Assembly (NCBI RefSeq): GCF_008807075.1
Contig: NZ_CP035632.1
Location: 2,294,001-2,358,000, forward strand
DNA length: 64,000 bases
Direction: 5' to 3'
Source of the DNA: Synechococcus sp. RSCCF101
GTDB taxonomy: Bacteria; Cyanobacteriota; Cyanobacteriia; PCC-6307; Cyanobiaceae
Positions 17,761 to 49,142 of the stretch are shown here, piece after piece. How positions within the stretch are numbered: the stretch's first letter is position 1; each line of letters opens with the position of its first letter. The notes below the pieces were generated by a model. That model searched no databases. It was not told the DNA's origin and was given only the letters and a program-made list of their open reading frames with translations. The translations under genes and the position numbers were made by a program.

Positions 17761-18057
17761 TCAGCGGCTGGGACAGGGGTGCTGCAGACAGCGCTCCAGG
17801 TGCAGGATCCGGCTCACCTGGCCGCTCAGGGTGGAGCCCGGGTCCTCGTCCTGGCGACGGCCTGCTGTCAGTCCGCAGTGACTCAGGGCCATCAGCAGCA
17901 CCAGCACGGCAATCGCCGGCTGTATCAGGGCCAGGGTCATGCAGCCCACGAGGGCCAGCAGGTTCACGGGTGTGAGCGGGCCGGCAGCGAGGGCTGGGCG
18001 CATGGCGAAGAGCCGGGCACTGCTGTTCTGGTAGCAGCGCCCGCCACCCGGCACCAT
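17761..18057 (-). CDS. Small membrane protein coupled to J-domain gene
   Basis: A 98-residue frame whose ATG overlaps the J-domain gene stop (TGATG), implying translational coupling. One long hydrophobic region (LLALVGCMTLALIQPAIAVL followed by VLLMAL) could span the membrane once or twice. The C-terminal part GQVSRILHLERCLQHPC is basic with three Cys across the tail. No family recognised. A start at the inner ATG near 18003 (MRPALAAG) is also possible. Confidence 0.45.
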   Translation of the reverse strand: MVPGGGRCYQNSSARLFAMRPALAAGPLTPVNLLALVGCMTLALIQPAIAVLVLLMALSHCGLTAGRRQDEDPGSTLSGQVSRILHLERCLQHPCPSR

Positions 18058-18638
18058 CAGAGGCGGAACTGCTCCCAGGCCTGCAGCAGGTTGTAGGCCG
18101 CCTGTTTGCGCAGCCAGCGCTCCTGGTCACCGCCCCGGTCCGGATGCCAGAGGGGCAGCTTGCGCCGCCAGGTGGCGCGGATCACCTCCCAGCTCACACC
18201 CGGCTCGAGGCCCAGTTCGGCGCAGGCGCGGCAGTAGCGGTCGGGGTACGTGGGGGCTGGGTCAGGAGCCTGAATCGGCGATGGGGGCGGCATCGTCTGA
18301 TTGCGCCGCTTCGCTGGCCGGCGCCGAGGTTGTGATGGCCCTGTCCAGCTCACGCCATCCGCTGGATCATTCCGAGTTTGGCCGCCGATTCCGGGAGGAT
18401 GCGGGCGGAGCAGGACCAGGCCACTCCGCACCCCCAGCCACAGGCCAACCGCCATGAAGGCCAGCGGTGAAACCAGCATCAGCTGGCTGTCGAAGGCGTA
18501 CTGGTGCTCCTGGTTGAGCCGCGCTTCACGAGCCCGGGTCAGGATCACGCCGGCCAGGATGGCTCCCACCACCAGACAGCCGGCGGCCTGCAGGGCCATC
18601 GTGGCTGCGGCGACGGTGCGGGATCGTGGCGCGGCCAT
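18057..18638 (-). CDS. Membrane-anchored J-domain protein
   Basis: The N-terminal third has two hydrophobic segments (MALQAAGCLVVGAILAGVIL and LMLVSPLAFMAVGLWLGVRS), the middle is a Pro/Arg-rich linker, and the last 50 residues are a short J-domain: LGLEPGVSWEVIRATWRRKL, PLWHPDRGGDQE with the HPD triad, and KQAAYNLLQAWEQF. It should recruit an Hsp70 to the membrane. ATG 18638 is chosen because it lies a few bases after the restored ATPase stop at 18646 and behind a CAGGGG ribosome site; ATG 18671 would overlap that gene. Confidence 0.75.
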   Translation of the reverse strand: MAAPRSRTVAAATMALQAAGCLVVGAILAGVILTRAREARLNQEHQYAFDSQLMLVSPLAFMAVGLWLGVRSGLVLLRPHPPGIGGQTRNDPADGVSWTGPSQPRRRPAKRRNQTMPPPSPIQAPDPAPTYPDRYCRACAELGLEPGVSWEVIRATWRRKLPLWHPDRGGDQERWLRKQAAYNLLQAWEQFRL

Positions 18639-18645
18639 CCCCTGA

Positions 18646-18842
18646 TCATGCCGCGCCTGCCGGGCGATCAAGCCGGTGGGTGAGCCAGGCCATGGGCAGC
18701 ATCGGCAGCATCGCCAGGCTGCAGATCAGCCAGTCGTCGGGGCTGAGGGGCGTGGTGGCGAACCAGTGGTTCATCGCCGGCAGCTGGCTGAAGAGCACCT
18801 GCAGCGCCACAGCCACCACCACGCCCGCCAGCAGCAGGGGGC
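18646..18842 (-). pseudogene. Frameshifted C-terminal tail of the P-type ATPase
   Basis: In the frame one base away from the ATPase the DNA encodes APLLLAGVVVAVALQVLFSQ, then LPAMNHWFATTPLSPDDWL and ICSLAMLPMLPMAWLTHRLD, ending at TGA 18646. This is a perfect last two helices for the ATPase. The shift lies at a run of five G on the plus strand (18837-18841); a sixth G would restore a protein of about 876 residues. As given, the ATPase runs into a Trp/Cys-rich nonsense tail. Either a slip mutation or a base-call error. Confidence 0.75.
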
Positions 18843-21275
18843 CTGCCGCAGGGCCGGCCAGTGCAGGTGCCCCCCTCGCCAGAGACCGCGCACGGCCTCG
18901 CTCAGGCTGAGCAGGTAGATCAGCCGGCTCAGCACCAGGCCCTGCACGGCCATGGTGCGCCCCACCTCCAGGCTGCCGTGCTGGTGCTGGCCCCAGGCGA
19001 ACAGACCGAAGATCACGGCCCAGTTGAAGGCGGACACCAGGGCCAGCCGGCGCAGCAGGCCACCGGTGAGCAGCGGCGCATCGGGCCGGCGCGGTGGCTG
19101 CTGCATCAGCCCCTCGGCCCTGGGCTCGAAGGCCAGCGGCACCGAGAGGGTGAGGGAGTTGACCATGTTCAGCCAGAGGATCTGCAGCGCGGTGATCGGC
19201 AGCGGCAGCCCCAGCAGGGTGCTGAACACGATCGTCATCGACTCGCCGCCGTTGATCGGCAGCACGAAGGCCAGGGCCTTGTGCAGGTTCATCGCCACGC
19301 CGCGGCCCTCCTCCACCGCCGCTTCGATCGAGGCGAAGTTGTCGTCGGTCAGCAGCATGTCGGCCGCTTCGCGGGCCACCTCGGTGCCGCCCCGGCCCAT
19401 GGCGATGCCGATGTCGGCCTGCCGCAGGGCCGGCGCATCGTTCACGCCGTCGCCGGTCATCGCCACGATCTCCCCCGCCGCCTGCAGGGCGCGCACCAGA
19501 GAGAGCTTCTGCCCCGGCGCCACCCGGGCGAACACCGTGGTGGCGCGTGCGGCCTCCGGCAGATCCGCCTCCGCCAGTGCCTCCAGCTCACGGCTGCCCA
19601 TGGCCTGCAGCCCATCGCCCTGGCCCAGCCCCACCTGGCGGGCGATCGCCCCGGCGGTGGCCAGATGATCGCCGGTGATCATCTTCACGGCGATGCCGGC
19701 GCTGTGGCAAGCCGCCACGGCCCGGCGCACCTCCGCCCGCGGCGGATCGAGCATGCCCTGCAGGCCCAGGAAACAGAGATCGTCCGGCAGTTGCCCGGCT
19801 GTGAGCGTCGCCCCCGGTGGCAGGCGACCCTCCGCGAAGGCCAGCACCCGCTGGCCACGCTCCGCCAGCTGGCTGAGGGCCTGCTGCTGGGCCTGGGGGT
19901 GGAGGGGCTCGCTGCCGCCATCGGCGGCAAGCTGGCGGTTGCAGCGGGGCAGGATCGCCTCCAGCGAGCCCTTCATCAGCAGGCGATCGGGCGCATGCAC
20001 CGTCGCCATGCACTGGCGGGCGGCCTCGAAGGGCAGGCTGTCGCGCCGGGGCCAGCGATCCAGCAGCCCGTCGCGCTCGAGGCCGGCCCGGTCGGCGGCC
20101 ACCAGCAGGGCGGTCTCGGTGGGGTCGCCCAGCGGCCCCTCGCCCTCCTGCATCGGGGCGGCGTCGTTGCAGAGCACTCCGGCCTCCAGGGTCCGGCGCT
20201 GGGCGCTGCTGAGCTCGGCCTCTCGATCCGGGGCGTCGGCACGGCCGGCGGCCTGCACCGTCACCACCGTCATCCGATTTTCGGTGAGGGTGCCGGTCTT
20301 GTCGGAGCAGATCACGGTGGCGCTGCCGAGGGCTTCCACCGCGGGCAGCCGGCGGATGATCGCGTTGCGCCGGGCCATGCGGTGCACCCCGATCGCCAGG
20401 GTGATGGTCACGATCGCGGGCAGCTCCTCGGGGATGGCGCTCACGGCCAGGGCCACCGCCGCATCACCCATCTCGCCCCAGGGCTGGCCGCGGCTGATGC
20501 CGATCAGGAAGGTGAGCAGCGCCGCCACCGCCACCACCTTCAGCAGCAGACGGCTGAAGCGGGCGAAGCGCCGCGTCAGCGGCGTGGACAGGTTCACCTG
20601 CTGTTCCAGATCGCTGGAGATGCGCCCCAGTTCGGTGTCCTGCCCCGCGGCCACCACCACCGCCCGGGCCGTGCCGCGGCTCACGAAGCTGCCGGCGTAG
20701 GCCATGTTGGTGCGGTCGGCCAGCGGCGTGGATGGCGGCAGGGGCGCGCACTGCTTGGCCGCCGGGAGCGATTCGCCCGTGAGGCTCGATTCGTCGCAGC
20801 TGAACTCGTGCAGCTCCAGCAGCCGCAGATCCGCCGGCACCCTGCCGCCGGGCTCCAGCAGCACCACATCCCCCACCACCAGACCGGCTGCATCCAGGGG
20901 CTGACGCCGGCCGTCGCGCAGCACCACCACGGTGCTGCGCACCACCCGGGCCAGGGAGGCGATGGCCGTCTCGGCCCGGCTCTCCTGCACGAAGCCGATC
21001 ACGGCGTTGATCAGGGTCACGCTCCAGATCACCAGGGCCTCGGTGAGGGATCCGCTGAAGGCCTTGATCGCCCCGGTGATCAGCAGGGCGTAGAGGAGCG
21101 GGTCGTGGAACTGCCGCAGGAAGCGCCACCACAGGGGCCGCCGCCGCGGTGGCCGCAGGCTGTTGGGGCCATCGCGCTCCAGGCGTGTGCTCGCTTCAGC
21201 CCGGCTGAGTCCGCGCTCGGCATCGCTGGCCAGCTCCCGCAGGACCTGATCGCTGGGGAGGCTGTGATGCGGCAC
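18771..21275 (-). CDS. P2-type cation-transporting ATPase (PacL-like), 3' end frameshifted
   Basis: Membrane cation pump driven by ATP. As read, 834 residues. Motifs: actuator TGES (166-169), phosphorylation site CSDKTGTLTEN with D325, TM4 ion-site motif IPEELPAIV (281-289), KMITGDHLATA, and hinge TGDGVNDAPALRQADIG. TM6 reads WLNMVNSLTLSVPLAFEP, with N/N/S where SERCA has N/T/D, so calcium is not assured; Na+, K+ or Mn2+ are alternatives. The product ends in a frameshift-like tail (PCCWRAWWWLWRC) in place of the last helices. Same strand as the J-domain gene that follows. Confidence 0.85.
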   Translation of the reverse strand: MPHHSLPSDQVLRELASDAERGLSRAEASTRLERDGPNSLRPPRRRPLWWRFLRQFHDPLLYALLITGAIKAFSGSLTEALVIWSVTLINAVIGFVQESRAETAIASLARVVRSTVVVLRDGRRQPLDAAGLVVGDVVLLEPGGRVPADLRLLELHEFSCDESSLTGESLPAAKQCAPLPPSTPLADRTNMAYAGSFVSRGTARAVVVAAGQDTELGRISSDLEQQVNLSTPLTRRFARFSRLLLKVVAVAALLTFLIGISRGQPWGEMGDAAVALAVSAIPEELPAIVTITLAIGVHRMARRNAIIRRLPAVEALGSATVICSDKTGTLTENRMTVVTVQAAGRADAPDREAELSSAQRRTLEAGVLCNDAAPMQEGEGPLGDPTETALLVAADRAGLERDGLLDRWPRRDSLPFEAARQCMATVHAPDRLLMKGSLEAILPRCNRQLAADGGSEPLHPQAQQQALSQLAERGQRVLAFAEGRLPPGATLTAGQLPDDLCFLGLQGMLDPPRAEVRRAVAACHSAGIAVKMITGDHLATAGAIARQVGLGQGDGLQAMGSRELEALAEADLPEAARATTVFARVAPGQKLSLVRALQAAGEIVAMTGDGVNDAPALRQADIGIAMGRGGTEVAREAADMLLTDDNFASIEAAVEEGRGVAMNLHKALAFVLPINGGESMTIVFSTLLGLPLPITALQILWLNMVNSLTLSVPLAFEPRAEGLMQQPPRRPDAPLLTGGLLRRLALVSAFNWAVIFGLFAWGQHQHGSLEVGRTMAVQGLVLSRLIYLLSLSEAVRGLWRGGHLHWPALRQAPCCWRAWWWLWRCRCSSASCRR

Positions 21276-48872: not shown

Positions 48873-49142
48873 ATGAGCAGCGATCGCACCGGCAGACCCT
48901 CCGGCACACCGGGCCGTTCCCTCCCCGCCGGCCCCAGCCTGCCGCCCGGTCTCAACGCCACCCGGCAGTCCCTCGCCAGCGGCCAGGCAGTGACCGTTGA
49001 GGGCACCAACGTGATCCGGGTTCCCTTCGGCGTCCGCCGGCCCCGGCGTGAACGCCCCGCCCGGCCCGAGCGCCTGGCCACCCTGGTGCTGCCGCTGGTG
49101 GCCAACGGTTCGGCCCCCACTCCGCCTCCCGCTGCAGCCTGA
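48873..49142 (+). CDS. Hypothetical Pro/Arg-rich small protein
   Basis: About 89 residues from ATG 48873 (GTG 48819 would add 18). Sequence is low complexity: SGTPGRSLPAGPSLPPG, then a more structured core NATRQSLASGQAVTVEGTNV and IRVPFGVRRPRRERPARPER. It resembles small cyanobacterial basic proteins without assigned role. The next gene begins 31 bases later. Confidence 0.45.
   Translation: MSSDRTGRPSGTPGRSLPAGPSLPPGLNATRQSLASGQAVTVEGTNVIRVPFGVRRPRRERPARPERLATLVLPLVANGSAPTPPPAAA

Follow-up and report, generated by a model that had tools for sequence, protein, structure and literature searches.

A one-base frame change at a five-G run in a P2-type cation ATPase gene of Synechococcus sp. RSCCF101, with evidence leaning to an assembly error

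The pump locus and its two reading frames

The genome of Synechococcus sp. RSCCF101 is a single contig of 2,984,853 bases. The window, by which we mean the whole 64,000-nucleotide stretch that was analysed, has a GC content of 69.9%, and a 504-kb sample of the genome has 68.6%. The part of the window considered here holds a cation pump gene, a homopolymer within it at which the reading frame changes, and the ORF that follows the gene:

21275..18771, minus strand: 834-aa ORF in the main frame, encoding a P2-type cation ATPase; listed with a GTG start
18837..18841, minus strand: five-base homopolymer (G on the plus strand, C on the coding strand), site of the -1 frame change
18771..18836, minus strand: end of the main ORF that is out of frame (21 codons and a stop); codon usage is non-coding-like and a hydrophobic segment is absent
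18646..18837, minus strand: shifted-frame tail, 63 codons and a stop, C-terminal part of Cation_ATPase_C
18741..18832, minus strand: RNA hairpin predicted downstream of the run; z = -3.08, with equal stability in 2 of 200 shuffled sequences
18057..18638, minus strand: ORF following the pump, 193 aa; contains hydrophobic segments, and its end, which has an HPD motif, is weakly J-domain-like

The pump carries the Pfam domains PF00690, PF00122, PF13246, PF00702 and PF00689 in this order (N, E1-E2, hydrolase, Cation_ATPase and Cation_ATPase_C), and these P-type ATPase domains place it among the P2-type cation ATPases. The main-frame translation also contains DKTGTLTEN, which includes DKTGT, the phosphorylation motif of P-type ATPases.

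The last of these domains was divided between two frames. PF00689 (Cation_ATPase_C, 175 positions) was matched over positions 1–111 in the main frame and over positions 121–172 in the shifted frame, and the second match (E = 4.8e-9) began directly after the first one left off. The protein encoded in the main frame was thus without a complete Cation_ATPase_C helical domain, since positions 121–172 were present only in the -1 frame. This agreed with an earlier interpretation, made from the sequence alone, that the pump as read loses its TM9–TM10 region.

The homology of relatives to the main ORF extended to about ...HLHWPALRQAP and was followed by an unrelated Trp/Cys-rich end (...RQAPCCWRAWWWLWRCRCSSASCRR). 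In the -1 frame from 18837, 63 residues (LLLAGVVVAVALQVLFSQL...LDRPAGAA) could be read before the stop codon at 18648–18646.

Codon usage switched at the same place. The main frame scored best as far as the window starting at 18881, and the shifted frame scored best for windows starting from 18851 to 18701; the last window was negative in both frames. The codon log-odds of the out-of-frame end (18771..18836) was -12.1. A frame-change scan that was blind to the expected site placed the shift at 18838. The one-base slip at the five-G run and the stop at 18646, both proposed in the sequence-only reading, were recovered. The frame changes at the run, and what lies on its two sides is homologous to parts of one protein.

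In hydropathy, the tail contained a strong segment at residues 1–19 (2.31) and a weak one at residues 37–55 (1.16); over the main-frame end, all 11 computed windows were negative. A "perfect pair of transmembrane segments" had been described for the tail. The first segment bore out this description; the second was too weak to be called perfect.

The next ORF begins with an ATG at 18638, seven bases from the end of the shifted-frame stop at 18646. Its match to PF00226 was weak, at 16.4 bits (E = 0.0099) where the cut-off is 27.8. Nothing resembling it was found beside the pump at E < 0.1 in 33 relative loci, each of which covered about 1.5 kb or less past the match (two were repeat regions of two others). 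The neat fit of this gene start after the restored stop had been offered as support for an ancestral frame. The spacing is as described, but the argument drawn from it is weak, as the ORF was unmatched in these loci.

The same region in relatives

The comparison set consisted of 151 genomes of the family, in which RSCCF101 is the sole member of its genus. The shifted stretch was matched in 32 of the 151 (RSCCF101 itself among the 32), with 45 matches in relatives at 37–59% identity. The loci of 31 of these 45 matches were aligned across the junction, and in every one of the 31 the head and the tail lay in a single frame. This bore out the proposal of an intact ancestral frame. A comparison with relatives had been named as a check, with orthologues ending in a Trp/Cys-rich tail as the contrary outcome; such an end was absent from all 31 aligned loci, which end in the helical tail.

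The run itself was not shared. A run of at least five bases within nine bases of the junction occurred in none of the 31 aligned relatives. In two of them, L010 and L012, a run of six G begins about nine bases past the junction, yet they are in frame.

One of the 31 aligned loci (L035, in genome G133) has the C-terminal part in a frame of 175 aa, with the head matching only from residue 717; this copy is broken further upstream.

The tail was also compared codon by codon. Across 51 codons its amino-acid identity to 24 relatives averaged 0.49, and the relatives' own range was 0.43–0.58; gapped rows, two repeat regions (L040 and L053) and L038 were left out of this comparison. Since the identity of the tail fell within the range of the relatives, there was no sign of decay, which suggested that the break is either recent or not real. 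Over 26 ungapped rows, unpruned for repeats, the differences at codon positions 1, 2 and 3 were 0.40, 0.27 and 0.39 in the tail, without a third-position excess, and 0.29, 0.25 and 0.44 in the head. The relatives compared among themselves gave much the same codon-position pattern in the helical region.

Other frame breaks in the genome

The search for other breaks covered 504 kb of the RSCCF101 genome (window included) and, as controls, 360 kb from three family members. The first thresholds of the frame-change scan missed the pump itself and were then relaxed. The totals of the codon-usage scan were discarded as rates, many of the calls being gene overlaps and antisense ORFs. In one scan, 4 of 22 calls in RSCCF101 were near a run of at least five bases, compared with 0 of 14 and 0 of 10 in two control genomes.

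The strict scan gave 53 rows in RSCCF101 and 46 in the controls. Those with a run nearby were inspected (16 in RSCCF101, merged to 12 sites; seven in the controls, making six sites), and the 37 and 39 rows without a run were left out. Five of the 12 sites in RSCCF101 were confirmed: one in the pump, two in FtsH, one in PEP carboxylase and one in a response regulator. A sixth, in a transglutaminase-like gene (L159), came from a separate earlier scan. The total for RSCCF101 was therefore six confirmed breaks at G/C runs in five genes, all of the -1 class. The genes other than the pump, a possible further case and the one confirmed control were as follows:

L157:8709-10596 (G000:C1:1708754-1710506), minus strand: FtsH, in three pieces and three frames, split at two G/C runs
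L181:14357-17469 (G000:C1:1614573-1617469), plus strand: PEP carboxylase, in two frames (profile 1–462 and 451–919), beside C runs
L178:5323-6143, minus strand: OmpR-type response regulator, frame differs between the receiver and the DNA-binding domain, which are separated by a stretch with several C runs
L159:2570-3663, plus strand: transglutaminase-like protein, N-terminal and core domains in different frames, nine-G run
L173:16793-17991, minus strand: glycerol dehydrogenase-like gene, possible split at a seven-G run, with a family match confined to the downstream part
L186:6819-8428, plus strand: glycerol kinase of control genome G139, -1 class, five-C run, profile 2–394 and 402–496 in two frames

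Six other sites were dropped by eye as overlaps or antisense (L156:6629, L157:15773, L174:1320, L176:18895, L177:7151/7179 and L180:11114), and a call at position 49119 of the window was unconfirmed on inspection.

In reciprocal tblastn searches, three break rows came up when the ORFs of the relatives were run against the RSCCF101 sample and four in the opposite direction, among 53 good pairs each. Alignments were viewed for two rows of the first set and two of the second, and all of these looked like antisense or out-of-frame matches; the positions of the remaining two rows of the second set suggested antisense matches. FtsH was the sole break kept from these searches.

The middle part of the broken FtsH was identical to that of G139 at 326 of 342 residues, and the genome has three other FtsH copies that are intact and above the family cut-off. 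For PEP carboxylase, there were no family matches in the genome beyond the two pieces. Among 19 other genomes searched, 17 had one full-length match without stops; the exceptions were G001, with two internal stops, and G012, with only an end piece at a contig edge. In the response regulator and the transglutaminase-like protein, the two domains are normally parts of one protein. The glycerol dehydrogenase-like gene may be a seventh break in this genome.

With six confirmed breaks near runs in 504 kb and one in 360 kb of the controls, numbers too small to weigh, the counts do not separate RSCCF101 from the controls. Four housekeeping genes chosen by name (rpoC2, dnaE, carB and gyrA) were all intact; together they total only about 12 kb, so that few breaks would be expected there.

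Five-base G/C runs numbered 195 per 100 kb in the RSCCF101 sample, fewer than in G071, G098 and G139 (273–303) at similar GC.

Cause of the frame change and comparison with known systems

Whether the cause is an error or a mutation had been left undecided in the sequence-only reading. The finding of similar breaks in other conserved genes of the genome tips the balance towards an assembly error. We put the probability that the frameshift is a homopolymer indel, or length error, in the assembly at about 0.7; a sequencing or consensus error, as opposed to a mutation in the cell, is the most likely cause. The organism would then carry an ordinary, intact P2-type cation ATPase. An error in the length of the homopolymer at 18837–18841 would shift the frame by -1 in the given sequence, and the last two helices would only seem to be lost.

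Two features expected of homopolymer errors were found. The break in the pump lies at a run, with intact homologues in relatives, and the break in PEP carboxylase lies in a gene that, judging from its essentiality in other cyanobacteria, cannot be lost. PMC4078008 reports that ppc is essential in cyanobacteria and that knockouts in Synechocystis were not fully segregated, as earlier in S. elongatus. It is the breaks of the same class in the sole PEP carboxylase and in a strongly conserved FtsH that favour error over mutation, and the main weight is on PEP carboxylase. In the portions of the literature searched, the sequencing method of the RSCCF101 genome was not found.

Several observations counted against an error. 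The pump may be dispensable, given another P-type ATPase of 929 aa; the housekeeping genes were intact (4/4); a control genome has the broken glycerol kinase; and the tail is without a third-position excess, though the relatives behave alike.

A second reading is a real and recent one-base frameshift in this strain, arising by replication slippage at the run, perhaps in culture. The pump would be truncated, losing its last two helices, and other P-type ATPases would compensate. Mutation at the run is plausible, and the genome contains at least one more P-type ATPase, the open frame of 929 aa, and additional matches at 686858–688432, seen at the DNA level only; the relative G133 likewise has a broken pump copy. 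On the other hand, the breaks of the same class in the sole PEP carboxylase and the conserved FtsH point to a cause in the sequence data and not in one dispensable gene. We consider a real mutation unlikely, while taking it as the alternative to be reckoned with.

Programmed -1 ribosomal frameshifting and transcriptional slippage involve a shift at a homopolymer with a downstream stem-loop. At the pump, such recoding, aided by the hairpin, would yield both full-length and short pumps. The five-base run, the strong predicted hairpin after it and the -1 class of the shift fit this. However, neither the slip site nor the shift is conserved: none of the 31 aligned relatives has such a run within nine bases of the junction, each needs no shift to stay in frame, and L010 and L012 do so despite their six-G run past the junction. 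Among the coding stretches of the window, 20 of 535 were predicted to fold equally well, as were 6 of the 346 whose GC was similar. Downstream of the five other confirmed sites the predicted folding energies ranged from -36.7 to -47.5 kcal/mol, close to the mean for the window (-45.3). The predicted hairpin was accordingly judged to be a probable by-product of composition, and we regard recoding as very improbable. A lineage-specific recoding site, with the run and the hairpin giving one full-length form and one without the last two helices, seems more improbable still. In that case, judging from the -1-class sites in FtsH and PEP carboxylase, this cyanobacterium would correct many frameshifts at short G/C runs during expression.

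It is hardly credible that the normal protein is the 834-aa product with its Trp/Cys-rich end and that the shifted frame is an ORF by chance. The main ORF is indeed open through to its stop at 18771, but PF00689 is matched by the shifted frame where expected and with coding-like codon usage, and the main-frame end has a negative codon score and no counterpart in the 31 aligned relatives.

The preferred reading, an assembly error, carries a warning on this genome sequence: annotation would label several conserved genes truncated genes or pseudogenes. Should the breaks be errors, it would be wrong to conclude that the pump, FtsH or PEP carboxylase is missing.

Among known pumps, the nearest solved chains were LMCA1 and the secretory-pathway Ca2+-ATPase (8iww). 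LMCA1 (lmo0841, 9euq/6zhf) aligned to main-frame residues 19–791 (E = 8.3e-154), and the tail alone had no match to a solved structure at E up to 1. Compared with P2-type cation ATPases, the pump as read ends 52–63 residues before the helical end. It also scored under the cut-offs of the ion-specific NCBIfam models (594.8 of 798.3 bits for TIGR01522).

With programmed -1 frameshifting the pump shares the -1 shift at a homopolymer and a predicted stem-loop, but its run and shift are not conserved in the 31 relatives. According to PMC12007338, the residual errors in long-read assemblies are mostly homopolymer indels, and the breaks in RSCCF101 resemble them in being -1-class shifts at G/C runs of at least five bases in several unrelated conserved genes.
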